Assembly: GCA_031763025.1 (NCBI GenBank)
Contig: JASSKH010000030.1
Coordinates: 627,197 to 691,196 of the forward strand
Source: Macrocystis pyrifera
Taxonomy: Eukaryota; Sar; Phaeophyceae; Laminariales; Laminariaceae
Length of the DNA stretch: 64,000 nucleotides
Direction of reading: 5' to 3'
How positions within the stretch are numbered: position 1 is the stretch's first letter; each line of letters starts with the position of its first letter. Shown here piece after piece: positions 7,690 through 52,982 of the stretch. The notes below the pieces were generated by a model. The model ran no database searches. It was not told the origin of the DNA and saw only the letters and a list, made by a program, of their open reading frames with translations. The position numbers and the translations under genes are program-made.

Positions 7690-9689
7690 CGGGTCTCCCG
7701 AATTGGGTACGGTTTGGCTTACCGCTCCGTCTTGAGTACCAGCGTATCCCTCCCTCCCCCCCTTCCTCGTCGACGTTTCTCAAGCCTGTTGGCCGTTTCC
7801 GTCCTTCGATGGGCGTAACACGTTGCGAACGGGCTGGGGATTTTGCGGAGGCGAGGTTGTGCTGGAGATTATCGGTTGTTGTTTGCGGATAAGGGGTTTC
7901 CAAAGACGACTTGTCTGCCGCGCTGCTTGGGGGCCGGGGCCGGCGTTTGGCCGGCACCGCGTAGAACATCGTCACGCTGCAAAATGAACGAATGTTTTTT
8001 TTCCTCTTGAACGTTTCTTGATCTGTTTTAGGGGTCTCTGTTTGTGCTCTATCGAGTACATGTTTTACTCTGAACGATTCTTCTTTCGACGGGTTGTCTT
8101 TTTGTACTCCCCTCAAGGAATTTGACACTCGAGCGGTTTCGCTCGTTGCGTCAGCGTTGCGCCAGGGCGATATAGCTGCATGAGCGTTGCGCAAGCCGTA
8201 TAGCTTGCGCGCCGTGCGTGCTCTCTCTGCCTGTGGTTCTCTGCGGCTTCCCTACTGGTGATGTTTGCTCGCGCTTGCGGTGTACTGCTGCTACTGTGCT
8301 GTTGTGCTGGGTCTTTGTCTAACGCACACGCTGCCATATGCACCTACGAAGACGCCATGTTCGCACCTGCATCGGCCCGTCACGCCTCTCGAGGCACCCG
8401 TCCGTTTGCCGCATTTTCTCCTAATGCATACATACGCGAGTCTTTTGCGTTAGTACGCCTCGCATAATTCGCGAGTTCACTGGGGTCTATTTGGGCGGAA
8501 AGTCGAATGTGTCCAACTCGGAAACCGCCGGTTTGATCCTGGTAACGAGACACGGGCCCCTGTTGTGCATTGCATCGTTATGCTTACCCCCCGCTGCTAT
8601 GATCTTGCTTGAGGTGGCTGTCGCTCAATCCTTTTCTTGCCGTCAAGTATCCAGGACTATTTACGTACGCACGTCCGATGTCACCTCACATACAGCATTT
8701 GCAACGCATTGCATATTCCAGCACGAAGTTATTTACGAACCACATTTTTTTCTCCGGTACTTCAATTGGGACGCGGGCCGTTCGACGCAAAACGGCAAAC
8801 CGGACAGAAAACCGTCTATATGCACCGGGGGCATGAACGATTTTGTGTACCTTTAAGTTTCGTTGCGCCCTGTGCCGAAACAAGAAGCGTACACCGTCTA
8901 CTGGAGTCAAAACCCATGCGCACCATTTTACGGCGGTTGACAAGATTCCAGAGAAAACACTAAAACAATGCGGTATAGTCGCGCCTCGACCAGGCCGGAC
9001 TACTGTAACGAAATGTGGAAATGCGTTGGGGGCACAGAATATCAATTGGACGGACAAGTTCCCTACTGTTTTTCGAGTGAAAATCGATAGGACAAAATTA
9101 GCTTGGTTTTAAAACGGAAAGTCGATCGGTTGAAAAACATACTTTCCAATTTTTGAGATCCCAGGAGTAATCTCACACAGCAACCTCGTAGTCGTTAAGC
9201 CGCTCACTGACTGGGGAATTTACAAGTTACAATTTTTGGGACCTTTTCATATTCTTATAGCTGGGATGTTTTGAGGTTTGTAAACCCTGGCGGAGGAAGG
9301 CTGCCGGGCAATCTAATTATTATTTTTCTCGATTCTATGTATTATCTTCGCCCTACCTAGTCTCCCGCTCTCTCCCAGTGGTAACTCAAATCCGAGGTCA
9401 CGTTGCGGGCGCTCCTCCCTATCTGGTACTACGGTCGGTACGTGCCTTGATTTTTATCACGGGAAGAATTCAGCATTTTCTTCCCTCGTCCACTGGCGTC
9501 AAATTTTGAAAACTCACCTTTTCTGCATTTCTTTTCACCAGTCAAAATCCGCCAAGGCTGGACTCTAAAGCATGGTCTTGGGGTACGTAGTCACAAGGTC
9601 TAACCGCTGTACCGCCGGAGTTGCCGGTAGTATACTGGCGGTGTCTACTGTATATCATACCAACACTATTTCGGGCCTTTTCCCCCGTC
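7690..9689. other. Intergenic, nothing recognised
   Basis: No reading frame, foldback or tandem array stands out between RPS23 and the LINE relic. A short GCGTTGCG-rich patch occurs near 8140-8215. Confidence 0.5.
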
Positions 9690-11044
9690 CCCAAGAGATA
9701 TCAAAGGACAGCTATTGGGATACACATATAGCAAAAAGTAATAGGAAAGGGTAAAGCACACGTAGGCAAGATGGATGCGATCCTAACAGACTCGCACCTT
9801 GACACTAGGATTAAGATATGTACCCTGATGAATGTGATAGTACCAAAGCTAAAATATGCAGGAGAAGTATATGGGAAGGGAACGCGAAACTCGTAAAACA
9901 GTGTTTGGAAACAGTACAAATGACAGCAGCCAAGAAAATCCTAAGATGCTCAAGTACGACTAGTAACAGCAGCCTATTCTGATGTTGCAACGGGAGCTAC
10001 GGGCTAAATTGACACACGACACCAAATTGGAACGTGGAAGTGTGGTGAGCTTAAGCTTTATTTTTACCAATCCGCCGGAGGATAAAAAAAAAAAAAACTG
10101 GTAATACAGTATTAAGAGCAGAACTAGGAATGCACCCACTCAAGACAAATAGAGACATGAGAAAGTTGAAATGTTTGTAATATAAGTAAGGAACATGCCA
10201 AAAAAGAGGTTGCCAGCCATAGTTGATAGAGCTGTATGGGAGAGCGTAACAAAAGGGCGAGCTGGAATAAGGTGGAATGGCGTAGTTGAGAAGGTATAGA
10301 AGGATACAGGGGGAAACCAAGAAGAGATGATGTCCGCCGGGAAGTTTGGGAGGTACAAGGCAGAAGTAGAAGAAAGGATAGAAAGAAGGCAAACGCTAGC
10401 GCTAAGAAACAAGGTAGAATCGGAAAACACTTGGAGATATACTGGGGATTGAGGGAAGGAATAGGAATGAAAACGTACTTGCATGGCCCAATGGACTTCG
10501 CGAAAACGCTGAAACTGCGCTTTCGTGTAGGCGAGCTGGACCTGCCAGAAAGAAGAAAGAGGTACCAGTCTGACCATAAATATAAGGTACATTTCGACAT
10601 TTTGTTGCCATCAGAACCTCCCTTATATTTACGATCAGACTGGTACACCAGTAGCCGGGAGGAGGAGGAAGTAGATGCACAGATGTGCCCGCGTGGCAAA
10701 ATAATAGAGTAGAACTCACATATCAGGAGAATGTGAAAGATACAAGGAGGAACTGGATGTTATTGGAAGAGATGAGAGAAATAGACGAATGTGACATGGA
10801 GGAGTTTGAAACACTAGATATGGCAACGAGAAAACGATCGCTATCCTAGCAGATAGATGGTGGCCACAGGCGGCCAAACAGGACGGGGATATGATTAGCA
10901 AAAAATTCTATGTAATATATAGAAACAACGTAATGAGCGCACAATTGTTGGAGGTGTCTCTATTAGGAGTATGAACGGTGGTCCGTCTCGAAAGGGATGC
11001 GTAGTCAATGGTCAAATGACTATGGCAAGCAACAAATGAATACT
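9690..11044 (+). mobile_element. LINE (non-LTR retrotransposon) ORF2 3' part, decayed
   Basis: Conceptual reading across several frames gives the C-terminal third of a LINE ORF2. It begins with the post-RT segment ILTDSHLDTRIKICTLMN and VIVPKLKYAGEV, then LETVQMTAAKKILRCSS. A cysteine-histidine motif follows (CPRGK...THIRRECERY, 10685-10740), and the end is GCVVNGQMT...SNK just before TGA near 11040. These are features of LINE C termini generally. The 5' part, with endonuclease and catalytic RT motifs, is missing, so the copy is 5'-truncated. It carries several stops and frameshifts and is further split by a 77-bp foldback element at 10566-10642. The terminal 100-250 bases recur at 19677, 26765, 36217 and 52699. 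Confidence 0.8.
10566..10642. mobile_element. MITE-3 insertion with GTAC target duplication
   Basis: A 77-bp element with ends CAGTCTGACCATAAATATAAG and its complement CTTATATTTACGATCAGACTG sits between two GTAC copies (10562-10565 and 10643-10646). It interrupts the LINE between codons for RRKRY and TSSREEEE. Single arms of the same family (CCTTATATTTCCG...CAGA) occur near 39365, 48345, 48680 and 49390. Confidence 0.85.
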
Positions 11045-11305
11045 GGCCACACCGGAAATTAAACTAGCTCATTGAAGCTGTCATCCATATGCAAGTCCGC
11101 CTCACAAGCGGTTCTTAGTAGGATGCAGCTCACCCTTCATGCGACTTGCCGGACACCTCATGGCGCTTCGCGCTTGTCTGCCTGGTCGGTGAAAACCCGA
11201 CATGCTCCGTCCGGGCATTGTAGGGATGCGAGGGTCTATGGTCATACGACTACGGCCATGCATGAGATCGAGTACATCTCTCCTATCGAGTACACCCCCC
11301 CCCCC
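11045..11305 (+). mobile_element. SINE-like element with poly(C) tail, full-length copy
   Basis: The element starts GGCCACACCGGAAATT, exactly after the GAATAC that ends the LINE. It contains CAAGTCCGCCTCACAAGCGG, a hairpin GGTCGGTGAAAACCCGAC and GGTCATACGACTACGGCCAT, then ends ATCGAGTACA followed by eleven C. It has no reading frame. Its start is defined by comparison with the reverse copy at 36377-36640. I see no clear pol III A/B boxes, so the class (SINE or truncated LINE UTR) is inference. Confidence 0.7.
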
Positions 11306-11760
11306 CGTCCCCCCGTCCCATTCACTATTTTCGCCGTCCTTTTCTGTCTTTCATATTAATGGTCAAACCTCAGCTCCGAGATCACATAGTAGGCCCTTCT
11401 CCCCCGTCCCCACGATGGTTAGTGTCTTCTTGCTTTTTCATCTTGAGAAGACTTCATCAGCCCTTTCTTCCTCCGTCAACTCTCGTCGGATTGACTGCGG
11501 AGGAGAAAAAGCGACAGAACAAATAGACACATATTAATACAGAGCAATGGCCCCCTCCACAGTGCCGGTATGCGCCAGCCAACACATCCGGCGCGATACG
11601 TAGCGGCAACCGGTACTATTAATAGCACACAGCCACACACTGGTCGAACCCAGCTGTGCCTATCGATTTCACAGGCACTATACGAGCGGGCAGCCGGCAC
11701 TCCACAGGGACCACTACTGTATAGTACAGCATCGGCCATAGGTACATAATACACCATTAA

Positions 11761-11869
11761 TATTACGGGGGGGCATAGTAAATAGGACCTACGGTACACA
11801 CAAGAACCTATATATTTACCTATTTTTATTACTAATATTTGGTCCTACTAACTATGGACCCCCGTAATA
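11761..11869 (-). mobile_element. MITE-1 copy
   Basis: The ends are TATTACGGGGGGGCATAGTA and its inverted partner finishing CCCCCGTAATA, with the internal ACCTACGGTACACACAAGAA typical of the reverse orientation. Confidence 0.9.
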
Positions 11870-19607: not shown

Positions 19608-19676
19608 CTAGCGGTGGTGCGGACGGGGTGAGTGCCTGTGACGGGCGAGAGCGGAGGGGCGGATGGGCGGGCGACG

Positions 19677-19782
19677 GGGGGGGGCGTGCTCATTTGTTGC
19701 TTGCCTAAGTCATTCGACAATTGATCACGTATCCTTTTCGAGACGGAGCACCGTTCCTACTCCCAGCAAACAGACCTCCAGC
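19677..19782 (-). mobile_element. LINE 3' tail fragment
   Basis: In the reverse direction the segment reads GGTCTGTTTGCTGGGAGTAG, GTGCTCCGTCTCGAAAAGG and AAGCAACAAATGAGCACG, then nine C at 19677-19685. It is the same ORF2 terminus as the copy ending near 11040. Another G run of about 13 (on +) lies just outside at 19788-19800. Confidence 0.8.
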
Positions 19783-19858
19783 GACGGGGGGGGGGGGGGG
19801 GATTGACGGGGTGCGTGGTAGAGCTACTATTAATAGCATAATCTTGAAACCATATAAA

Positions 19859-20083
19859 ACGGGGGGTCATAGTAATCAGGGCCCATCATACACACAAAAA
19901 ACCTATTTATACCAGTACTTTTACTATTACGGGGGTCCATAGTTAATAGGACCTATGGTATACATAAAAACCTATATGTTTGACTATTTTTACTAACAAA
20001 ATTTGGTCCCGTTAACTATGGATCCCCGTAATAAGCATCCTTGGACTAAGCATATTTGGTCCTGAATACTGTGGTCCCCCGAA
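19859..20083 (-). mobile_element. MITE-1 inserted in MITE-1
   Basis: A complete copy at 19925-20033 (TATTACGGGGGTCCATAGTT to GATCCCCGTAATA) is embedded in an older one. The older left half is 19859-19924 (ACGGGGGGTCATAGTAATCAGG) and its right half is 20034-20083 (TATTTGGTCC...GTGGTCCCCC). Both lie in reverse orientation. The outer copy is visibly more diverged. Confidence 0.85.
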
Positions 20084-24900: not shown

Positions 24901-27900
24901 GCTCCAAAGTTCGACATATTTTTCGGGGAGTTTTTTCTCCCCAACTAAAAAAAACATTATTACGGAGGTCCATAGTTAACAGGACCTATGGCATACATAA
25001 AAACCTATATAAATTTAGGTATTTTTACTAACAATATTTAGTCCTGTTTACTATGGTCCCCCGTAATAGTATTTTGGTTGAGACTCATACTGGTATCCAC
25101 AGTGCTTTTTTCTTGGTCAGGCACCACTGTAGAATTAAGTTGTGACCCAGCGCTCGGTCCAACCCTACCGAGGCGTTTGTGATGTGCCTACGCGTTGACG
25201 GACAGAGCGTCAGTCCGGCCGCGCTCTGGGCGTGTTTCCTCAACGCCCACCCGACCGTTGACGCACTCGGCTCGAAACAAATCATTACTACGATTGAAGC
25301 CAGTCGTCTCAAGCCTCATACCTTGCTGACGCCTGCTACAACTTGGAGCATGCGGTGCTTCGCCTCCCTATCGGGGCGCTCCAGTCTCGTAGTTCATCTC
25401 CGTTGATCCCTTTAGGAGTGCACTCCCGTTTTGGGGGCAAATTACTTGGAATTAGAGTTAGATACATGTTGCTGTGCAGTGCAGTGCTGAAAGGGTCAAA
25501 CTACTATGTCCTCACCCTAAAACGTTTCCTGTTGGTTCGTACGAACCTTTCGCTTGTCTTTTTGTTGCGTGTGCTTCGCCCCCCCAAAAAAAATGACTTG
25601 CCGCCCCAACATTAAACATTCTTAAAGCAGATCCCGCACCTGAGCCTCCTCTACATTCAGCACTGGAAACGGTGGGATTTTGTGACGGCATTCGTTCTCG
25701 CGGGGGGGCTGCACAGCCTCTGTTCCCTCTTCGCCCACGACAACCCCATCGTACGCATGAAGGCCATCCACACGCTCGTCAATATCACGGCGCACCAAGC
25801 GTTCGATTGGTTCCGCCCTCCGCCCCGCCACCGCAGCGGGGGCACGGTCGAGGCGAGGTTGCATCGCGCGCTGCTTGGTCTTCGCTCGGATCCCGCGTTT
25901 ATTTCGGGGCTCATCGCGAATTCGTGGGGTTCTTCTGGACGAGGGCGTGCCAAGACGGGGACCGGGGAGGGGGGGACGTTTCCTGGGGCTTGTCTGGTAT
26001 GTCTCGAGGTGAGTCTAGCTAGAAGTGACAACTACGGCCTTCGCAAACGCAACAAGTATCGGAAAAACTATAAATAGACACACTGCGCTGGGAAAATAGT
26101 GTAGGGCGGTATTGGGTAGGGGTCTGGCAGATTAATAGTAGACGAAAATTATGCGTTGGGGTTGACCTCGGATTGCATTGAGCCTTGCTGTTCGTCTGCC
26201 TGTTAATAAAACATTCCTCAGCGTCTCGTCCGGGAGGGTTTACTCGTGGTTCGTACTCTCGCCAATCCATCAATATATGTATCCTGCTGACGGATTAAAT
26301 CGTGGTTCGTACGTTCTGAGGTAAGCCTCATTAGATTTTTGGTCTAGCCGCAGTATAGCTGATAATGTGCGTGCACGGCCACTCTCTCCTGCACGAGCGT
26401 AAACGGCTTCTTTTTCACCCTGTACATCGGTGTCCGTGATCTTTCTGAACATTTTAAGCCTCCACAAGACCATCGCGATCGCGTTTGGCGTGTCTGAGCT
26501 TACCTCGTCGCCCGCCCGACACCAGTCCTGTCGCTCGCGGTTGGGGGGTGGGGGGCGGCGGGGGGGGAGGGGGGTGTACTCGATAGGAGAGATGTACTCG
26601 ATAGGAGAGATGTACTCGATCTCATTCATGGCCGTGGTCGTATGGCCGTAGACCCTCGCATCCCTGCAATGCCGGGACGGAGCATGTCGGGTTTTCACCG
26701 ATCAGGTAGACTTTGCTTGCGCCAAGCGCGAAGCGCCGTGAGGTGGCGGGGGCGGGTGGGGGGTACTCCTTTGTTGCTTGCCTTAAAAAATTGAACATCG
26801 GTGGTGGGGAGGGGGCGTACTCATTTGTTGCCCTTGCAGGGGGCGTACTCATTTGTTGCTTGTATTAGTCATTTGACCATTGACCACGCGTCCCTTTCGA
26901 GACGGAGCACCGTTCCTACTCCTAATAGAGACACCTCCAACAATTGGGCGCTCACTACATTGTTTCCATATATTACATAGAAACTTTTTGCTAATCTTAT
27001 CCCCTTCCTGTCTGGCCGCCTGTGGCCACCATCTATCGGGGGGGGGGGGGGGGGGGGTGCTCGATATCATGCATGGCCGTAGTCGTATGACGTGGGGGGA
27101 GAGGGATGAAACGGGGGGGTGGAGGGGTGGGGAGGGAGAGGGGCAGGGGATAGTAAGCGACAACCAAAGCCTTTGCTCATTGCACTTCCTGGGTGCAGCA
27201 CACCCGGCAGGTACTTCCTGAAGTCACAGCCCACCCAACCCACCCCTCTACCCACGTATTGGCGCGCAGTTACTGGCGATGTGGCTCAGTTGGGTCCGTG
27301 CCCTCCACACAGCGGACGGTACACTGCGGCTCAGTCGCCCCCTGTTTCGAGCCCTTAAGGAGTGGGGTGGGACAGGGGGTGAGCGAGAGGGTAGTGAGTG
27401 GGGGAAGGTGCCATGGGGACCGGGGCCGTTTCAGGATCAACCGGACGGCTCGTGTGGGGCAGTGGGGGTCACGGGAGAAGAAACGTCTGGCGCTCTCGTG
27501 GATACGACGACGGCGGGGATTGGGGACGGTTTTTCCAACGACGAGGCGGTTGCGCTTAGGGGCGAGGGTCCCGATGTTGACCGCCGAGAAGGAGTAGAGG
27601 TGGGAAAAGAAGCAGAAAGAGAAGGACGAGGACGAGGAGGAGGAGGAGGAGGAGGAGGAGGAGGAGTTGCCGTGACAGAAACGAGCGAGAGTAGCAATGA
27701 GAGGGCCACGATAGGTGAACCAGGAGCAGGAATGATGGATGAGCTACAGCCTTCTTCGTCGTCGTCACCGCCGCCGGCTGCCCAACCGCCGGAGAAGTTA
27801 AAATTCGGTGAACTATCGGTGGATGATGCGGAGCAAGCGAATGGGCCGGTGGTGGAGCCAGTTGCCAAAGAAACATGCCGAGGACGCCAAGAGATTATTG

Positions 27901-36178: not shown

Positions 36179-36216
<38 letters not shown>

Positions 36217-39200
36217 CGTACTCATTCGTTGCTTACCTTAGTCATTTTACCCTCAAACACGCATCCCCTTCGAGACGGAGCACCGTTTTTACCTCTAGAC
36301 ACCTCCAACAGTTGGGCGCTCATTACGTTGTTTCTATGTATTGCATGGGAACTTTTAGCTGATCATACGCCGTTCCTGGCGGGGGGGGTGTACTCATACC
36401 ATGCATGGCCGTAGCCGTATGACCATAGACCCTCACATCCCTACAATGCCGGGACGGGGAACGTCGGGTTTTCGCCGGCGAGGCAGACATTGCTTGCCCC
36501 AAGCGCGAGGCGCCGCGAAGTGTTCGGCGTGTCGCATGAAGGGTCAGCTGCATCCTACGAAGAACCGGCTGTGAGGCGAACTTTCTTGCATGTGGATGAC
36601 AGCTTCGAACGGAATTGATTCAATTTGTGGCGTGGCCACCTCCAGAGACAGCAATGGGTATAAAACGCACGGAACTGCCTCGCGGGTGCCTTACCATGTA
36701 CCTTGTACACACTAGCAGGGTACGTGATGCAATAGGTGGGTATAGTTATTGCCATGCATGGCCGTAATTTTACGGCCATAGACCCTCGAGGGCGGAGAGA
36801 GATTGCATCCTGGCGTATGGGGGGGGCTCGAATGCCTCGTCCGCGTCGCCTTATAACGCGATGCAGCAACAAAGAGGCAGAGACGCCGTCTCTCTATAAG
36901 CGATTAACTCCAAAAGCGATTGTCCCGTGGAAAAAAAAACGACAAGAATCGTGTCCCAGCCATTGTCTTCACCGATTTTTTATACCGACTCGTACGTACG
37001 GAGTTGCCAAACACAATATACTTTCGGTAAATACGTTACCGAACCTAAGACTGAATAGACGCGCGCTGCGATAGGGGCACAGGCACCTAATTCTTCCGGG
37101 GCTTCTCGCTTGAGGAGCCCCATACCTCAATACCTGCAGTAGTAGCACCCCAAACTGTGTTTTGACGGAACATGTAGGCTTATTTCCGATGAGCAATGCC
37201 ATGGCCTATGAACTATGGCCTAGGTGCGACCGAAAACTATCGTGGAACACAAATGAGATCCCAGGTACGTACATCCTTGAATTCTGCAGCTTCAGACTTT
37301 TGTCTTCCTCATATACTCATATACGGACTTGTACACCCGGCATGAGGCCATATAAAACCCGTATATAGTACGCGCGGTGGAGGCATCACTATTACGGGGG
37401 ACCATAGTTAATAGGACCAAATATTGTGAACAAAAATAGGGAAATGTATACGTTTTTGTGTGTAGCGTAGGTCCTATTAACCATGGTCCCCCGTAATAGT
37501 ATCAAACACAGCTTGCAAAGACGAGCTTCGACAAAATCCTCGATCCCACAGCTGTTGCTTTTTTTTATTTTATAAATATATACACCGGATAATCTCTCAG
37601 CTGAGGAGCGCTGTCAGTCAGAAATGCCGCGAAGAGGGTTGAGTTTGAAAAAACAGAGGGCGCAATCGTGTATTCAGCGCTCGACTTTTTTCCAGAAAAC
37701 GGGAAAAGGTTTTGCCAATACGTATCGAGCAAGGCGTTTTTCGTTCGGGGTATGTCGGTCGAGAGCCCTTCCCTGTCCAAGAATATAATACGTTCGACTG
37801 TTTTTCGGAAAAGATGCTGGTCGAGAGCCCTTCCCTTTCCGCGAAAATATAACGTTGAACTGTTTTTCGGAAAAGATGCTGGTCGGGAGCCCTTTCCACG
37901 CAAAAACTATACATACATATATATAGACGTTCGTCCTTTTTTAGCACCCTTTTTACCGTTGTTAAGAAAAAACGAGCACTGAAAACGACCGCAACCCTGT
38001 GCAAATTCAATTGTCCTTACGGTCGCTCGACCGAAAAGAGCCACCCTTGTCGTACCGCGGATCAATACCACAAAAACAAAAAAAAAAATCGTATACCACG
38101 ATTGCGGATACAGGGGAGAAGGGGCCGAACCGACCAGCTATGTACACACCACCGTGCCAACCATCCTCACCAGCTCTGCCACGGAAACAGCTCGGAAGAT
38201 TTCAGCAGGGTCCTCCTGGAAGGCTCCGCCAACGCCTCAAAAGACGCGTCGAACACTTTTGAAGCCCCGTCAAAGCCGTCTTTGGCGAACGTCACGGCCG
38301 ACCTCGCGGCTGTCGTGTCCAATCGGCGGCAAACGGGCGCGGAACGTGCTGGTTACTACCAAAAAAAAACAAAAAATGCTCGGAAAAACGTCATGATACA
38401 ACAACAAGAATGAGCTGCTGCAAAAAAATAAAAAGCAAGCAGGATAGCTTTGAGTGGGCGGTTGACCCCCCCCCCCCCCCTCCTCCTCCTCCCCCGGCCT
38501 TTCATTGGCGTCGGTCGTTACACTCAACGACCACGCTTGATGACAGGACAGCCACGTTCGGCTACCCCACGACTCGGTTAAGCGTAAGGCGCGCCGCGGT
38601 AGTTTCGAACCCGACAACAGTGGAAAGCACAAACAAACAATTTGACCTCCAACGACAAAAACAGGGTAGGTCTACGCAGGATCGAGCAGGGGAGCCAACG
38701 TCACGCACGCATTTCACACCTGACACACACCTGAAAGAGACCGGCAAATAAGTAGGAGAGCGCGATCGGAGCATACACACGCAGCTTGCAAAACATGAGC
38801 ATCGACGAAAATTTCCATCTCGCGGCTGAGTGTGTGTGTGTGTGTGTTTGTTTTATTTCTTATACTTTTTTTAAGGACCCATCACAAGGACGAAGAAGAC
38901 AAAGGGTCCCCTTGACGCCCCGCGATGCCACGCGTCTCTGCTGCACACGATTGGAGTTGCGGTAACGCCTGTGGAGCTTGAAACCCCCCTGCGCAAAAAA
39001 GCAACTGAGATACCGGTAGTACAGAGCAAGGGCGCAGGAGCGTCCGCCAACCAGGCCCAGTCCTTCAAACAAACAAAAAAAGAGTAAGATGAAAAAAACA
39101 ACAACAACAACAACAACAACTCTGTGGGGAAACACAAGGACCGCTGGGTCCTATTACGGGGGGTCCACAGTTATGAGGACCTATGGTATACGTAAAAACC

Positions 39201-42200
39201 TATATATTTGACTATTTTTACTTACAATATTTGGTCCTATTTACTATGGTCCCCCGTAATAACTATGAATGCCTCTTAGGAATGCAGTCCCGTTTTGGGG
39301 ACAAAATGACTTGGAATTAGAGCTACACACGTGTTTCTTGACAGTATTAAAGGCGTAAAACGTGTAAAAGTTCCTTATATTTCCGTACAGAGTGGTGTGT
39401 ACCAAACAGAAGAGGGGAAAAAAAAAAACGCGAAAAACACAAAAAAACAAAAAAAACAAAAAAAAAAACACAAAACACAAAACACGAAGGAGGTTGGATA
39501 TGATACGGTACACAGCAAGAAACAACGCCACCACCGTGGCAAAACAATTCTTGCATGGGCGGCCCAGCCATAAAAAAACAAACAAACCCGTCAAATGGCG
39601 GCAGCAGCGAGCGGCGACACGGCACGACGCTGCTCGCGCCAACATACCCATGGCAAAGGCCATGGTAGCACGGCAGAGGGATTACCGTGATTGACGTACA
39701 AAGCCGCCCCCTGAAGCCCGCTCGGCTGCGCGGGTGCCGACCGCACCAGGTCCGACTCTATGTCCTCGAGAGACTTGCGTATGTTGCCCTTCGAAAACGG
39801 CGGCAAATAGAACCACGGCGGCGGTTACAGAGCAGGGGAGGGTGAGCGGTATGCTGGCGGGAGGGATGCAAGGAGGGGGGGAAGGCGGGGGTGGGGGTGG
39901 GAGGGGTCCACAGGTGGCATCACCACCTCTCAAAGCCACGCGGTTAGGGTTGGCCTGTGTATTATTGTTGTTGTTGTTGTTGCTACTGCCGTCGGGGTGT
40001 GTGTGCGTCTGTCGCTGTCCGGTTCCGGGAACAGCTCGACATCGCTCGCACACGTACAATACCCGAAACTACTAAATTACACCGCTACGATCGTACCTTG
40101 CATCAATACCGGACGCGCACCCAAACGAGACGACGGAGTGCACCCCGCTCTCGAGGCGAAACCCGTCACAGAACCACAGCACAGCCGCCCTGGCACTCGA
40201 CCGTAGTATCTCCCGCTAGACACCGTAGTTCGGCGGGGAAAATCCGCCAGCGTATCCCAAATTCATATCTTCGTTGCAATTCACCAATCGACCGCCTCAA
40301 ACCGACGGTTTTGAAAGCACCAAGATTAAGGCGCAACACTAAAACCCTCTTAAGGGCACACCAAGCGCAACCAATTTTTTTTTTTCCAGCGAGCATAGTA
40401 ATAACCAGCGGTATATACGTGTCTCGCTTGTCTGCGCGAAATCACATAATAAGTGTCACAGATGTGCTCTCTCCTGAAAGTGTGCGCTTTTCGATGTGTT
40501 GTGTGACAGCTATGCACGCCCGGGTTACTCGCGTCCCTTACAGCATATTTCAATAGATTGTGCATTATCTCGACGCTCGCTGCGTCATTGGAGCCTTGTC
40601 ATGATCTATCGACGTCGAGGGGTAATACATAAGACGCACCTTGCACGGCTCAACGTAAATGAACATAGTACACGATCGAGTTCATGTAACCCCGGTCGCA
40701 ATCGTAGGGCAAAGGAATGCCTTGTTCCTGACAACGCCCTGGTTCCCTTTACGTCCGTATCGGCTACGTGACCACCCCTGTTTCCCATACCAATGGAAGA
40801 AACATGTCTTTGACCCGTGAAAAACGTGATGGCGGCGATTCTGATGAGCTCCAAGCATTCTCCGAGTGTTGTCCGAAGTCGTTAGTTTTTTCATCCGTGC
40901 TAACGTTCATGAGCGATCCCACGAAGGAATTTCCTTCTTCAAGGGGAATACTTCGTGGGATCGCTCGTGAACGAAAACATGGCCGACAACAGCAGCGACT
41001 TCGGACAGCACACGGGGGATATTTCGAGCTCATCATAATCGCTGTCATCTCCTTTCTTCTCCAAAGTTCAATTGTTTCTCTTCGAGAAACCAATTGTCCT
41101 CAGCGCACCGCGCCGGATCCACATGCCGTTATAAGCATCGTTCCTGTTTATTATAGGAGTTTCTGTTTGTACACGCGTATGCACCGACCGGTCTACATTG
41201 ACAGCTTCCGCTGTATTTTGAAATCGCCTTTCGCGCTCGCTGCTCGTCATGTGATTTGTTCATAAGATTGCACAAATAGTCGCGCAGCTTATCCTGGTAA
41301 AAATATGCACTTCGTGGCAGATACACTGCTACCTAGAGTACACACCGCATCACAACAAGCATGCGGGATGCTGAAGATCGACAGTCGCACAGCAAGGGAA
41401 CTTCTCGACTTCCGTCAAGCTCTACCGCAGATAAAACCATACACGAGGCTGGCCTACCTCTTCCGTGCAAGAAAGTACACACAAGGTACTTAAGTCCGCC
41501 TCACAAGCGCTTTGTTACTGTTGTAGGATGCAGCTCACCCTTTCACCCTTCCTGCGACTTGACGAACACCTCACGGCGCTTCGCGCTTGGTGCAAGCAAC
41601 GTCTGCCTGGTCGGTGAAAACCCGACGTGCTCCGGGCCGGCAATGCAGGGATACAAGGGTCTATGGTCATACGACTACGGCCATGCATGCACCCCCTCCC
41701 CAACCCCGACGGTTTTCTTAATCATGGCACATAAACGCCGGAACCCCTCCCCTCCCCGCGACGGATGCGAGGATCTACAGTCATGCGACTACGGCCATGC
41801 ACGACAAGGAGTACATCCCCCTCTTGTCGGTGAAAACCCGACGTGCTCCTCTGTCCCGGCGCTGTAGGGGGGCGAGAGTCTACGATCATACGACTGCGGC
41901 CGTGCATGACAACGAGTACCCCGCCCCCCTCCACCCACCTTTTCCCGAGGCTCACCTGCAGCCCTTCTAGCACTTCTCTGAGGTTCTCGATAACCTCTGT
42001 CTCGGCGGCAAGAGCCGTGTAAGTCATCACCCGGGTAACCTCCTCCGTGTCGTTGAGCCGCGCGGCTAACGACGCCAGCGTGACCTGCTCACAAGAGAAC
42101 ACACACACACACAAGAAGAATCTTGAACAAAAACAGCCTAGCTGTCGCAAGGAACTCACTCGTACAGCAGGATATTTTGAAACTGCCGTCAACTTGCGTG

Positions 42201-44226
42201 CGTTGCAGGACGGGGACGCGTCAGGAAATTCGAAAGGGGTTCATTCCTTTAGGGTGCTTCGTCGAAGCTAGAGACTTGCTTTCGTAAAAAAGCGAAGAAA
42301 AACGCGGGGGAAGCACGGGCGGCGTCCCCTCAGAAGCCCGACGATAGACGATGCTATGGGTTGCGGTGGCCGCCAACGACGTCGCCCGCATCTAAGCCTG
42401 GCCAGGCCGCAACAAACCCTCACTCACAGCTCGTGCAAAAACTACGACCGAGCACGACAGACGGCAAGAAGATAGTATATAGCTGTCGCTATTAAAATAG
42501 GAACGCGCGCAACGGGGAATGTCTTGTTCGCAGAAGGTATCTATATCATCAAACAAGAACCAAAACCAGCCCAACTCGTAATTTAGTTTTAGGGCCAAAA
42601 CTAAAAATAGGTACGAAACGTTGTTGTACCTTTTGGTATAAAGTACGGCGGTGTACACAGGACGATTTTAATGTTTGGGTGCCATCGACTTTAGAAAGCC
42701 GCATCCACTCGTAACAAAATTGTACGACGCTGTACAGGGTATATATACACGGGAAAGAAAAAAAAAAAAAAGAGAGAGAGAGAAAAAGGAGACAGAATCG
42801 TCGCCACGATATCGGAAGTGAAAACAAACTATCATAGCGGGTTGGAATTTGGTCAGAAATGAAATAAAACACTTTTTTTTCAGTTCTGGTTCACTTGATT
42901 TTTAGCAACACCCCCCCCCCTGTCAAGGACGCAAAAAAAAAATGTGGGGTGCCGATTTTTTTTTTTCGTGTACCCTTGAATTCACTCGTAGTAAAAACAT
43001 TACCATGCTGTACCCTAATGTAAGAAACGCTTGTATAAATACATTTAATCAAAATGGTTCCTTTATTTCGGGACAGAGCGGTAGTCATGGCAAGAATCCC
43101 GAAAACAACACCACTCAAAAACAACACGGGTGGAAGCACGTCCGATCCCGCACTGGCCTCGCGGAAACCACCGCCAGACCTACTCGCGAACACGCGCTTT
43201 CGATGGTCCACCGGGTGACACACGGGTGAGGATAAGGTTAGCACACGACCCCTGCACACGCTGAAGGCGTCCCTTATCAAGCACGGCATCCACCCTTTCC
43301 CCCCGCCCCCCTGCCTCCGCCGTCTTCCACCAGCCACGGAGGACCCCCTCCCCCTCCCCGCCCCGTCCCCAATCGGCACTCCGTACTCACGTCCGCTAAG
43401 AAAGCAGACTCGCACCCCCTCCCTCTACAAAAAACCAGCCCCTCCCCCACTCCCCCCCCGCCCTTGAGAAAGCAGTGTTCACGCCCTTTCCGCCTAAGAA
43501 ACCAATACTCACGTCCCCTCCTCCTAGGAAAGCAGACGCCTCCCCCGACAAAAAGGACGTCCCGCTCTCCTCCCCAGGCTTCCCGGTTGCCAGCAGCCGC
43601 ACGGCATCGGTGACGAGCGACGGGGGTACCGCGCCTAGCAGGAGGGCACGGTAGACCTCATCGAACGAGAGTTCTCCGATACCCTTCTCATCCAGCTTCC
43701 TGCGACGAAAGACGGACACAAAACACACGCATAAAACACATGCAGTACGCAACCAAAACAACGCACGCAAAACACGCACACATCGAAAACCGCGGAAGAG
43801 AAACTTTTGCGCGCACAAAAAAGGATGCTGCTGGTCACACAACACACAAGCCATGCACAACAACACACACACACACATTGCATCAACCAGAGACAAAAGA
43901 GATTGACGCGAAAGGAGGGTTGATACATATACATAGACAACACATGCACAAAATCAAAAACAGACGGAGGAACGCAGCAACCGAGAGAAATTGCGCCATT
44001 TCGTTCAGGTTTATAGCCCGCTGGGCTACTGGCAAATGGTTAAGCAATTTTCCCATCCGAACTAAGCCTTCTAACCAGATACTACACGCAAAGAGTTCTC
44101 ATGAATTCACCGTGTATGCGAGCGGCGGGGTGTACTCGATATCATGCATGGCCATAGTCTTATGACCTTTGTAGACCCTTGCACCCCTACAATGCCGGGA
44201 CGGAGCACGTCGAGTCTTACCGAGGC

Positions 44227-44267
<41 letters not shown>

Positions 44268-44318
44268 AGGGGGAGGTGTACTCATATCATGCATGGTCGT
44301 AGTGGTATGACCACACAA

Positions 44319-44356
<38 letters not shown>

Positions 44357-47300
44357 GGGGGGGGGGGGGTCTATCATCGCGACTAGCGAACGAGCTCTTC
44401 TTGGACAGCGCCGGCGGTGCGCGCTAAACAAGAGCTCCTGTCTGACGACGTCACCACTGCCTTTTCTGCCGAGCGAAGCATTATTTTACGGGTGTTGAGA
44501 CGAAAAGCCAACAGCCGTCCAAGGCACACACACAACCTCGCTGACCTGACGAGCGCTTCCAGGAGCGACAACTGCTCCTTCGTCTGCTGAGGCAGCAGCC
44601 TGCCTATCGACTCCTCGATGTTCCGATACGTGGCGTTAAGCTGAATCATCAAGCTCCCCTGCAAAACGTGGCGACGATAAAAAAAAAAAAAAATCCGCGA
44701 TTGTGAAAGTGACGCCCATCGATCATCGCTCATCGCCAGCGCGCAGCCCTTGTCTTTCGTCACACACGCATTAACGCGACCGGCGGGGCGGAGCCTACTG
44801 GGCATTCCTCGAGCGGACACACGATAGAAAGTACGCAGCACGCCCCTCCGCGCTGAAATCGCAACGGCGCTGACATCGCATACGACGACAGGAAAAAGCG
44901 AAAAACAAAAAAAAAAATGCCAGGCGCACGCGGTTGACCGTTCGGGAGCAACCAAGCAACCCAGGCGACGTGACTCTGCCGCGACGGGGCCGTGAGTTTG
45001 CCTCGCAGCTAGATAGAAACTCGTAGGGTGGTAAGAATTAAGCCAACAAACCGACTTCTACCTTTTTCATCGATAATTACCGTCGAACCACAAAATGCTC
45101 CAAGTCAGAGAGATGCAAACACGCGGAATTGTTGAACGAGGCCAACCAATGACCACCCAGTAATAGGCGGCGAGTTACAGTCAGCCAACTATCAGCCCTA
45201 CCAGATACGTATATAGTCGCGACGGTTTAACGTGGCGACCGTGCGTGCGCCCGCGAGCACGCAACCCTGGTCGGAAACGCGCGACTAGAGTCGCGTGCTA
45301 CGCGTATCGCGTGTTGCCCTATGCGCTCACAAGCGTTACGGAAGTACAGTAGTTCGAATCGCGCACGGGTATCGGGATCGTTCACGCCTGGTCTTGCGCT
45401 GCCGCCGTGAGACGAATCAGTAGTGATTATGTTTGTACAACAACTTGGACCAGCGTGGGAAGAACGGTTGTCAGTCCAGACTAAATCCTCACTACCTCTT
45501 CACTCCCGAGAACTTTCCCAGATACATCCCAGGCGGTCGGGGACACAGTGTTAGGGTTCAAAAGTTAAGCATATTCGAACCACATTGTAGAAGCTGGCCC
45601 AACGTCAAAATAATCTACAGCCTTCGGTCCGATCGCACACGACTTCGACAACGTCCTTCCGTCCGTCCACGCCAGGTAAGGCTACAAGCAGTACGTACGT
45701 AGAGCTGCGTTGTTGTTTGTCGGAAGCATAGCTATAGCCGTTCCCCGGAGGTGCCAACACCATCGAGTTGTTGAGATTTCCACTTTTGTGCACCAATAGG
45801 AAGGATTGTCGAAAGCAGGATACACATTTTTTTTTTTTTTTTTTCGCCTTTTTTAGGGCGCGCGCCCCTTGACCTGGAAAGGCTGGTTTGGTTCGCTTCG
45901 CTCGCCTGAGTCAAGTCGGCAAGTCGGCAAGTCGACTGAATGGCCATCAGCTGGCATCGCCAGCCGACTCGCCGACTAAAGTCAGATGGCTGGTTAACGC
46001 CACCCACCTACTGGCGACTTCACAGCTCTAGCAAGCAGTGTTTCTGATGTGTCGCCCCCCCTCAGCCTCACCTCGTCGGCGGGGAGCGTGATAGGCCGCA
46101 GCAACGCCCTCGTCTGGAGCTCGATAACCTCTTTGAGTAGCGCCTCCTGGTAGCTGTTGCCCACACCTCTCCGCTTCCAGTCGGCTTTCCCCGGAGAGGG
46201 GCAAAAAGGGAACAACGACAAAAAAGAGGTGGAGATTGGAGCCTTTTCGGGATGGACTTCTCGCTCGCTACGTGGGAAAAAAAAAAAAAAAAAAACAACA
46301 ACAACAGGGCAGGGCAGGGCAGCGACGACTACACCACAGGTAGACTTTGAAGGGCGTCGAAGTGTCAGTTCATCATCTGGAAAACCCTACAAAAAAAACG
46401 CGTAAGGGCGTCCAAGTGTCATCGTCACCGAAAAAACCTGACTGAATGTTCTTCTGTTAGAGCAGGCGGGGGTATATCGGGGGAGGGGCGAGCGCTCCCT
46501 CCACGAGGTTCGAAACAAAAAAAAAAGGCACGTACTGCCTACCGCAAAGAGCCGTTGGGCTCGCATAGGGATGCGATCGTTTCTCGGCGCTTGCTTTCTC
46601 TCTCCAACGGTCAGGAGGGTGATCGAAAAAAGTCCAAAAATGTTTTTTTTCTCGGAAGAAAGCTCTCCATCGGCATCTTTGCGAAAAGCCCTCCCTTGTT
46701 CGGTGTTGGCAAACCTTCTCGCTCTGGAGAAATCGAGCGCCAAAGCTAAACGGTCGCACCTCTCGTGCGAAGTCAACGCTCTGTCGCGCACTACGGTATA
46801 TACAAGGAACGTGCTCCACGTATGCACAAAACACATACCTGGTACAGACAAACTCTCACCGACTTCCGAGGGCCATGAGGAAGGCATGCTTTGGCAGGTT
46901 GGACTTCACGATTATTCCTTGTTTATAGTTGGCTAGCAAAGGTAACCGACTAACCGACTTACCAGTTGTCTTATCCACACGAAAAAAAAAAACACGTACG
47001 AGTCACAAAAGACGCGCCAGCCAGATACATAGAAGAAGAACTCCCCCATTTTTCCGGGAGCAACCAAAAAAACTGTACAGGTACGTACTACCTACCGGCC
47101 CAGCGCTCCGGGCGGAATTACAAGGAAGGTTGGGACTTCATATTTACGTATGAACACTCCTTATATTGTCGCTCAGAGCGGTATACGAGTAGCCAACTAA
47201 CAACTATAAGTCGGCGACATATATGCCCAGGACGGGAAGGTTGTCAATACCGAACCAAAGGGCGCTTTCGGAGAAGTTATCTACCTGGTCGAGAGAGAGC

Positions 47301-50300: not shown

Positions 50301-52894
50301 GAAACTTGTAACTGCCGTCAACTTGTGTGCGTTGGTGGATTCCCGTCCGTCGGTCGGTCCGTCGGTCGGTCAGTCGGTCGGTCGGTCCAGTCATCTCGAA
50401 AGGGGTATAGTACCTTCTTTGAGGAGTCGTGTGAATAATAAACTTGCATTCGCTCGTATACTTCGTACCGGTACGTAATTATTCTTAGATGTACGTACCT
50501 CAACGTTTCGGTAAGTCTCGTTCAGCAGCGCCCACGCCGGTCCCTTGACATTGTCCTCGAGTGCTTCCACCTTTCGACCGTTGAGTGTTCGCACAGAAGA
50601 GGTGTTTCGTCGAGGCACCGAGAAGACGACGAAGGGGAGCAAGAGCAGAGCAAAAAAAGTGACGCAAGCGTGATAAGGAGGCGTGTGCGTGCGTGTGTGT
50701 GGAGGGGGGGGGGGGGGGTGGGAAGCGGGGGCGGGGGGTGGCCGGATCAGAGCGAGGACACGCATACATGGGTGCGCAAGGTTGTCAGGGACGCGTGTCA
50801 GCGCGGGCATCGCCTTCACCTTGTCCGCGAGGAATCGCCCTACACTGTACTACCACCCGCAGCTGAATATTTCTGGCGGCCATGCTTGCCGAGAATACAC
50901 AAGAGAAGCCGCTGAGATTCCGCTGCTGATATGCTTGAAAGAACAATGTGCGCATGCGCGTTTGTCGCAAACGGAATACCAAGCGAACAGGACCCCCTAC
51001 ACACACACACACTGCCACCCCCCCTCCCCCTACCGGAGCAAAATGAGACGTTCGGTCCAGCTCGCCACGTATCACACGAAAAATCGTGCTTGTCAGAACA
51101 AGCAGAGTTAGCCGCTTGGGCTAAACGTTTACCTCCTCCCTCAAGACTACCGGTGAGACCATGGCAAAATACAGGGAGAGAGAGCACAAGCTATCGCGCG
51201 CGTCAAAATTTCTCAGCACAAGGAAAATGGGCGCGGCGGGGGGGGGACGGGGGTCCACCTTTCTTAGGCAGGATCGAGGAGGGTCACATACAAATACTGA
51301 GATTTAACAGTTCCACACCTGTGCATTGATCTCGCGCTTGGCAAGCTCGCCACCGGCAACTCCCACGACGAGCATTAGCGCCTCCCTCGGCATCCGGGGC
51401 ACTGAGTCCCTGCAGGGTACAACCGAGGCACAAGCCCGAAAAAAAAGAAGTCGACAAACACATAACCTTCAGTTCAGCGCCAAAAACAAACGCAATAGAA
51501 GAAGCACCAAACACCAAACCAGGACAAAAAAAATAATGGTGGCGCATGCGGTGGTGGAAACAGAGAGACCGCCACGGGCACATAAAAAAAGCGACGACGT
51601 ACCCGGAGGCGTTTCGGCGGTCGGGATCAGCAGCGGAGTGAGACAGAGGGCGGTGCCAATAATTTCCATACTTCCATGTCACGCGATTACATGATTTTAC
51701 GAGAAAAACGATGGCGCGCGAGCACGAAACGGCTTCATGAACCTTTCAAGCACTGCACCGGCTCTACGGGGACACTCACAAAATACAGAACATTTTCTCA
51801 CTCAGAAATACAGCAGATTTTTCCTACTCAGAAACACGGTACATTTTCTTGCGCGGTGGGCTAAAGTAAGAGGATACATACGAACACCGCAGGCAGGAAC
51901 CATGTAGCATCAGCTCTGCAGAAGACAACAGAGAGGGAAAAGAGACAGAGAGAGATAAAGAGATCCCTTTTCCTCCCGCTGACCTGATTGCCTGCTGCAT
52001 CCGCGCCGTGATACCCGTCTTCTCCATGAAGTTCACGGTCCACCGGCGCCACGGAGGGAGCACGTCACCCGCACTCCCGCCGGCACCAGCGACATTTTCT
52101 GCAGCCCCACTTTTTTTGGAACTCGCAACGTCCAGGTCGTCCAGGACGTACGGGGTAGGGGACGAGAGGAGCACGGCCCCGCACGAGAAATCCATCCCTT
52201 TAGACAGGGCGGCTTCCGCCACCCACCGCCTCTTGGCCTGGAAGAAAACAAACCACGCGGGTACAGCCAAGGTTTTCGTGTGAGACAGAGGCATGACGAG
52301 GGGATAGAAGACCCGAATGAAACCGAGAAGTTTACGGCAGCCTTGCTTCCATTTGAGAACTACGGGTCGTTTTTCATATGATCTGTTTTCACGTTTCCTT
52401 TTCGTCTCGTACAATATTTTTTTTTAACGCTCTATGCAGAAAAAAAGAAAGAAATAAACAAAGTGGGAAAACATCTCTCATCGCCCGCGTCGGTGAGATG
52501 CGACCGTACAGGCAGAACCACCGGCAGGGCGCGGAGCCTCTACACCCACCTCAACAACGTAAACAGCGCCCAAATGACGGATGTGTCTATTGCGGAGGGA
52601 CCATAGTAAGTAGGACCTACGGTACACACGAAAACCTATATATTTACCTATTTTTACTAACAATATTTGGTCCCGTTGACTATGGCCCCCCGTAATAGTA
52701 GGAGTAGGAACGGCGCTCCTGCTCGAAAGGGATGCGTTTTCAATAGCTAAATGCCGAAGGCAAGCACCGAACGAGTACGCCCCCCGCTACTCCCCCCCTG
52801 CCTGGTCGGTGAAAACCCGACGTGCTCCGTCCCGGCATTGTACGGATGCGAAGGCCTACGGTAAAACCACTTCGGTCACGCATGATGATGAGTA

Positions 52895-52982
<88 letters not shown>

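Follow-up and report, generated by a model that had tools for sequence, protein, structure and literature searches.

A LINE and a short non-coding partner with a common 3' end of predicted fold among poly(C) runs in Macrocystis pyrifera

In the genome of the brown alga Macrocystis pyrifera, a LINE of about 4.8 kb with endonuclease and reverse transcriptase (RT) domains and a partner element of about 0.5 kb, judged non-coding by its length, end in the same way: the last ~70 nt are common to both, are predicted to fold into one branched RNA structure, and pass into a run of C letters. We consider it likely, with a probability of about 0.8, that an APE-endonuclease LINE and its partner use this common fold as a template mark, are directed to poly(C) and give rise to chains seeded by C-runs. 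The evidence comes from a stretch of 64,000 nucleotides (the window; contig JASSKH010000030.1, positions 627,197 to 691,196) and from searches of the genome (537,376,219 bases, 223 contigs). The features of the window are collected in Table 1.

The LINE, its partner and their common end

The longest genomic LINE copies read have about 4.7-4.8 kb in common (loci L061 and L064). Pfam recognised RVT_1 in L060 (E 3.4e-32) and Exo_endo_phos_2 in L062 (E 3.2e-7, above the cut-off) and L064 (9.8e-6, just below it), and the RT matches ten distinct solved sequences, among them LINE-1 ORF2p and R2. No RNase H was detected by Pfam in the six LINE pieces scanned, and short LINE pieces and five window ORFs gave no match over a cut-off. 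All LINE copies read are decayed; put together from pieces, they show an apparent single ORF between about nt 600 and the stop. The frame NGAPSRKGCVVNGQMTKASNK-stop spans the predicted fold, and its stop codon TGA overlaps GAGTAC in the consensus and in copies. Between this stop and the C-run stand GTAC and usually one base, so that a 3' UTR is almost absent. RT and endonuclease domains, variable 5' truncation and target-site duplications (readable in few copies) place the element among non-LTR retrotransposons, and the APE-type endonuclease, the RT and the very short 3' UTR are found together in RTE and RTE-X elements. The LINE therefore appears RTE-like, an assignment made by domain content and short 3' UTR. 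Scans of IMG/VR and of prokaryote genomes found no relative. Brown-algal proteins presumably include some with a LINE C-terminus resembling the present one.

The exact 26-mer of the LINE end occurs 2900 times in the genome (1436 + 1464), and the reversed-pattern control 0 times. The first 30 of these loci in contig order left 26 after repeated flanks had been collapsed (three near-identical pairs are still included), and a C-run of at least 4 lies within 15 nt in 26/26; equally long runs of A, G or T occur in 0/26. The expectation of the earlier note that tails would be C-rich in most copies was borne out in this sample. A set of 30 loci chosen by similarity to a C-ended query, and biased for that reason, showed the C-run in 30/30 (by eye). 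The 5' truncation points of the LINE copies vary from 43 bp to more than 1.6 kb; a GAGTAC + C-run end with variable 5' truncation is what target-primed reverse transcription predicts, as had been proposed.

Several observations concern the LINE copies themselves. Near-identical loci lie on several contigs (L068 and L077-L080; L069/L071; L070/L072; L074/L075), a pattern as if from duplicated segments or alternative assemblies. An inverted repeat of ~85 bp (10562-10646, matching its own reverse complement at 69%) breaks the reading frame for the C-terminus in the LINE copy at 9694..11045, and a palindromic MITE-like element (52600-52695, by eye) splits the copy at 52529-52779. This element seems to have at least two further occurrences in the window, in similar stretches near 11766-11866 and 19905-20050 (by eye).

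The partner is longer than was first thought. GGCCAC, taken in the earlier note as its start, is an internal site, and copies in the genome extend a further ~250 bp upstream to a start at TATATAT..GGGTTGGGTTGGCG; the copy in locus L020 measures 516 bp. Because genome copies reach beyond GGCCAC in this way, the partner copy at 11046 is 5'-truncated: the SINE-like copy described as full-length and sitting exactly on the GAATAC end of a LINE does join it directly (11045/11046), and it is not full-length. Partner copies also exist in the genome apart from the LINE. Shortness, lack of coding capacity and a 3' end in common with a LINE are traits of SINE-type elements. No tRNA was found in the window, and Rfam, searched at E up to 5, gave no match to 11030-11310 (the partner's final ~250 bp). 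A search of the partner for the boxes of an RNA polymerase III promoter gave A-box-like matches no better than in shuffles and no B-box match. Since these searches were negative, we use 'SINE' in the sense of a short LINE-dependent element only. A known RNA family as the origin of the partner's last ~250 bp was rejected on the Rfam results (the window at gathering level, and 11030-11310). The terminal 18 bp of the partner (ATCTCTCCTATCGAGTAC) are tandemly repeated, with GAGTAC twice in many copies; the tandem was seen at 26570-26620, 11255-11294 and 53000-53040, and GAGTAC stands three times in the copy at 26576-26749.

The common end is well above background in the window. When one mismatch is allowed, there are 17 matches to GAGTAC-N-CCCCC where 1.09 are expected, a count reached by 0/100 shuffles, which confirms the shared end that had been noticed; for GGTCATACGACTA, allowing up to 2 mismatches, the counts are 14 and 0.96. 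The LINE and partner ends named before were recovered to within about 20 bases, and extra copies were found. The two elements had been called otherwise unrelated. This does not hold for their last ~70 nt, where 54/68 columns of hand-made consensuses are identical and GAGTAC closes the block. A partner profile found LINE ends at 36293-36200 (E 4e-4), 26910-26839 (E 0.012) and 10981-11026 (E 0.084), and a LINE profile found partner ends at 36442-36384 (E 0.007) and 11222-11264 (E 0.09). With the last 12 nt stripped, LINE_a against partner_a scored 34, the best of 35 pairs, while the highest score among 300 shuffles was 22; z was at least 3 in 16/35 LINE-partner pairs and below 3 in 19/35. When one genomic partner copy was compared with one genomic LINE copy by Blast (E up to 1), the tail was the sole match. 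Chance similarity of the tails was rejected on the motif counts against shuffles, the profile matches and the genome count of the 26-mer.

A partner that was merely the LINE's 3' UTR, or had arisen from the LINE by deletion, would also possess the common ~70 nt and would often lie next to the LINE, as the partner does. This explanation is highly improbable, since about 440 bp of the compared partner copy have no match in the compared LINE copy, partner copies are found without a LINE, and all 26 sampled LINE ends are followed by a C-run instead of the partner. The earlier note had held that its proposal would fail if the GGCCAC element were the ordinary 3' UTR of full-length LINE copies, and this was not seen in five compound loci: in L003-L006 (four of the five read) a LINE end is followed by a C-run and then by a partner cut at differing points, and in L002 LINE end and partner are directly joined, as at 11045/11046. 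The variable junctions, the C-run ends and the unmatched ~440 bp led us to reject the partner as a LINE 3' UTR.

Table 1. Coordinates of LINE and partner features in the 64,000-nt window.
Feature	Position	Strand	Basis or remark
C-rich 5' flank CCCCCGTCCCC of LINE/partner compound	9682..9692	+	sequence, by eye
C12-GTCCCCCC 3' of compound; with the CCCCCGTCCCC flank a possible target-site duplication		+	by eye
LINE copy, 5'-truncated, decayed: RT-domain end and C-terminal ORF, GAATAC end	9694..11045	+	start at 9694 taken from translation; relatives found in genome
LINE 3' RNA fold (predicted), in ORF end with stop	10977..11044	+	25.9 bits, partner-trained structural model
Partner, 5'-truncated, directly joined to LINE end	11046..11294	+	longer genome copies
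Partner 3' RNA fold (predicted)	11201..11276	+	training sequence of structural model
C12 run behind partner	11295..11306	+	
Target-site duplication, 3' copy C9-GTCGC	19671..19684	-	exact 14-bp match at both ends
LINE copy, 5'-truncated	19685..19780	-	
Target site, 5' copy C16-GTCGC	19781..19801	-	
Partner, 5'-truncated, terminal ATCTCTCCTATCGAGTAC unit repeated	26576..26749	-	
Two very short LINE-end fragments (26816-26826, 26763-26781), C-rich run after each	26763..26826	-	
LINE copy, 5'-truncated, C-terminal frame open, abuts C20	26844..27037	-	
Partner fragment, then C20 (27038-27057)	27058..27091	-	
LINE copy, 5'-truncated, then C35 (36182-36216)	36217..36377	-	
Partner extending upstream of GGCCAC, then C8	36389..36735	-	upper limit approximate, by eye
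Three co-oriented partner copies in chain	41431..41925	+	
Chain: C-runs (44322-44369), partner fragment, C38, partner fragment	44126..44369	-	
Chain: LINE (MITE-like insert ~52600-52695), partner, C86 (52897-52982), partner, C11	52529..53051	+	
Partner fragment abutting C21	53570..53624	-	opposite to chain ending 0.5 kb before
LINE ends	11045 (GAATAC), 19685 (GAGCAC), 26844, 36217, 52778		
Partner ends	11294, 26575, 36389, 44277, 53039		
Further partner copies	41431-41690, 41757-41815, 41823-41919, 44132-44221, 52798-52896, 27058-27091, 53570-53603		
Partner copy without C-run	near 36753		

The predicted fold of the common tail

The trimmed consensuses of LINE and partner, folded independently, are predicted to form the same branched structure. 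It consists of a stem P1 (GUGCUC/GAGUAC), whose 3' strand is the terminal GAGTAC, a hairpin P2 (CGUCYC-loop-GGGAUG) with the loop GAAA in the LINE and 9 nt in the partner, and a stacked P3 that ends in UGGUC-NNNN-GACUA. In the LINE the predicted fold sits within the end of the ORF, stop codon included. In an alignment made by hand, the two elements are identical in 43/45 paired columns and in 11/23 unpaired ones, and 0/75 circular shifts of the structure match this difference. On the same kind of alignment the LINE retains 21/23 partner pairs, while the same 14 substitutions placed at random keep 15.4 pairs on average and reach 21 in 1/20,000 trials.

A structural covariance model (R1) trained on seven partner tails recovered three of the five window LINE tails, at 25.9, 24.9 and 14.3 bits (E 2e-5, 4e-5 and 0.08); the fourth scored about chance level (E 1.9) and the fifth was missed. 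A sequence-only model gave these three tails 14.6, 12.2 and 7.4 bits, and LINE tails from nine genome loci scored 33.3-35.6 bits with the structural model against 17.5-22.7 with the sequence-only one. The sequence-only model was scored locally and the structural model end to end, and for this reason truncated partner tails were found by the former and mostly missed by the latter.

Pair changes in the window's seven partner and five LINE tails showed no excess over shuffles. A larger set of 110 distinct rows, drawn from 150 aligned genome and window tails out of 174 matches, has two-sided changes in 13 pairs against 4.4 in shuffles (0/500). This alignment was fitted to the structure, however, and controls in which the structure was slid along it give 4-12 pairs against 13 and 5-20 cells against 17; paired cells amount to 92%, compared with 29-45% in the slid controls. 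Folding gave modest z-scores (LINE -2.06, partner -0.81), and with extra 5' sequence the minimum free energy structure of the LINE switches to another stem. A 3' RNA structure conserved in LINE and partner, as in LINEs of the stringent type, is thus predicted with weak covariation.

The modest z-scores and the shuffle-level covariation among window copies would fit a tail that is shared through DNA-level descent alone, with a fold that has no role and a partner mobilised by another enzyme. We find this unlikely, because most positions at which LINE and partner differ are unpaired ones, and the two families share an unusual target and an orientation. A fold read in both RNAs is the interpretation we prefer. 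The overlap of protein and fold in the LINE ORF means that, with the fold written in the last ORF codons, one sequence would serve both the protein and the RNA mark; this overlap is observed, and selection may act on both layers.

C-runs at insertion sites and the chains

The C-run had been understood as a poly(C) tail. It does stand at the 3' end, and it is also found on the 5' side, which an ordinary tail does not predict: window copies carry a 5' C-run of 5 or more within 30 nt in 13/20 cases. Once duplicates recognised by their flanks had been removed, 62 genomic insertions (42 LINE and 20 partner) were left. Of these, 51 have a C-run of at least 5 within 40 nt of the 5' end, 59 have one within the same distance of the 3' end and 48 have both; at least one side lacks it in 14/62. 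G-runs at the same insertions number 2 on the 5' side and 0 on the 3' side, and in the background 5% of window 40-mers hold a C-run of 5 or more. Left out of this count were 13/60 LINE loci without a boundary in reach and partner rows below 88% identity, shorter than 200 bp or too near the locus edge; near-identical pairs (e.g. L070/L072) were retained, as were L042, L076 and L085, whose boundaries were placed too far upstream through joining another match. The partner insertions and one half of the LINE insertions were selected with C-ended queries, which favours C on the 3' side, and the 5' side is therefore the cleaner measure. No family member or tail motif was found within 110 nt upstream of 42/62 insertions, and 31 of these 42 still have the 5' C-run, which argues that it is a property of the target and not of a tail alone.

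Target-site duplications, which the earlier note had wished to see tabulated, are readable in few copies and unreadable where both sides are C. Those that reach from the C-run into other letters are the exact 14-bp case in the window (19671-19801) and L010, L011, L037 and L052. Duplications that span 12 bp or more and include no fewer than three non-C letters occur in 4/62 true pairs of flanks against 7/3782 mismatched ones, and those of at least 8 bp in 5 true pairs against 30 mismatched. From C-runs on both sides (48/62) and duplications that start within a C-run we conclude that poly(C) is the favoured target and is entered in one orientation. Microsatellite-specific elements likewise insert into a single simple repeat with a fixed orientation; here this is a strong preference and not a rule (48/62).

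Some 3' C-runs in the window are very long (86, 38 and 35), locus L052 has C7 on the 3' side against C5 on the 5' side, and lepidopteran RTE elements have been described as giving rise to microsatellites at their 3' end (PMC2887409). These points would suit a C-run made by the element, through a templated C tail of the RNA or slippage in reverse transcription, instead of a feature of the target. Such an origin is unlikely to be the main one, because it leaves unexplained the 5' C-runs of copies without an upstream neighbour and the starts of duplications inside C-runs (L010, L011, L037, L052 and 19671-19801). Untemplated addition of C to the cDNA end would appear as G-runs on the 5' side, and it was rejected on their count of 2/62. 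Slippage may add to the length of the C-runs. As a separate observation, very long C-runs of 34 + 13 (44322-44369) and 86 (52897-52982) occur in the window, and the longest one away from LINE and partner elements is 17.

Chains are a second regular feature. Another family member lies within 100 bp downstream of 22/60 LINE ends (20 partner, 2 LINE); all 22 neighbours are co-oriented, and 17 chains are left after duplicated loci were collapsed by hand. Short chains joined by C-runs occur on many contigs, and the copies inside each multi-copy cluster of the window share one orientation (9694-11306, 26570-27092, 36182-36790, 41431-41925, 44126-44369 and 52529-53051). At the window compound the LINE end runs straight onto a truncated partner with no C-run between and with C-rich outer flanks, and L002 is similar, as would be expected if chains were single events in which the enzyme jumped between RNA templates and no new insertion into an old C-run took place. 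For the chains in general we think this improbable, though a little less so than a C-run made by the element, since in 20/22 chains the next member begins at least 18 nt after the LINE end, usually beyond the C letters (by eye), and copies without an upstream neighbour also sit in C-runs. Because lone copies share this setting, one target rule covers chains and lone copies alike, and insertion of later members into the C-run of an older copy is the origin that we infer for the chains.

Proposed mechanism and comparison with known systems

In the mechanism that we propose, both RNAs would end in the same ~70-nt branched fold, which the LINE protein would read as a template mark, so that the ~0.5-kb partner could move by the enzyme of the LINE. 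In a poly(C)/poly(G) tract, the endonuclease would nick the strand of G letters, whose free G end would pair with C at the RNA end and prime reverse transcription. New copies are often 5'-truncated and mostly embedded in the C-tract. A C-tract kept or lengthened beside the new copy would then be a target for the next insertion, with the result that chains run head to tail in one orientation. The LINE/SINE-type pair proposed at the outset is retained as a non-autonomous partner with a common 3' end, and the C-run as an ordinary tail is given up in view of the 5' side and the duplications. On balance we also favour a wider description, in which this is a self-seeding, homopolymer-directed system: an RTE-like LINE and its partner would recognise poly(C), carry their mark in the ORF end and stop codon, and keep or lengthen the C-tract on insertion, giving genome-wide chains of both families.

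A system with thousands of copies could test how the RNA of a LINE with almost no 3' UTR is chosen, given that its mark can lie within the ORF, how one target can come to be favoured by an APE-type LINE, and how an element can create later landing sites. A homopolymer at a LINE end need not be a tail, and here much of it looks like target. The literature searched (titles and abstract openings, with supplements and most subscription journals outside reach) describes no poly(C)-targeting LINE, and self-seeding chains and an in-ORF recognition fold were likewise not found in it.

The following comparisons hold for the accessible parts of the sources cited. In the stringent-type LINE ZfL2 of zebrafish, the LINE protein binds a 3' stem-loop (PMC4176376); a 3' RNA structure as template mark is the likeness, whereas the fold predicted here is branched and lies within the ORF end. 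RTE-clade LINEs of Lepidoptera have, like the present one, an endonuclease and an RT, a 5' UTR and an extremely short 3' UTR by simple repeats (PMC2887409). Here, in contrast, the repeat consists of poly(C) and flanks the element on either side; the single ORF of the present LINE is an apparent one, put together from pieces, and its place in the clade is putative. Insertion into a simple repeat is shared with microsatellite-specific LINEs such as Togen at (TG)n; target-specific families belong mostly to the early-branched, Tx1 and R1 groups, and neither poly(C) nor an RTE target is mentioned in what is accessible of that account (PMC4640811). The Zepp LINEs of the green alga Coccomyxa also form nested copies in clusters, but with one cluster per chromosome, whereas the present chains are short, joined by C-runs and spread over many contigs (PMC3446292).

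The closest likeness is found in the brown alga Ectocarpus, where RTEX-N1_Ec32, a non-autonomous element of ~600 bp with a 5' part of unknown origin and more than 6000 copies, has its 3' end in common with the autonomous, often 5'-truncated LINEs RTEX-1 and RTEX-2_Ec32 of the RTE-X group (PMC12477816). A LINE and a short partner with a common 3' end and 5'-truncated LINE copies are therefore known in kind. A C-run, a LINE target site, an RNA fold and chains are absent from the accessible description of that set, the comparison being one with the description only (PMC12477816), and the Ectocarpus families and the present pair may be the same.
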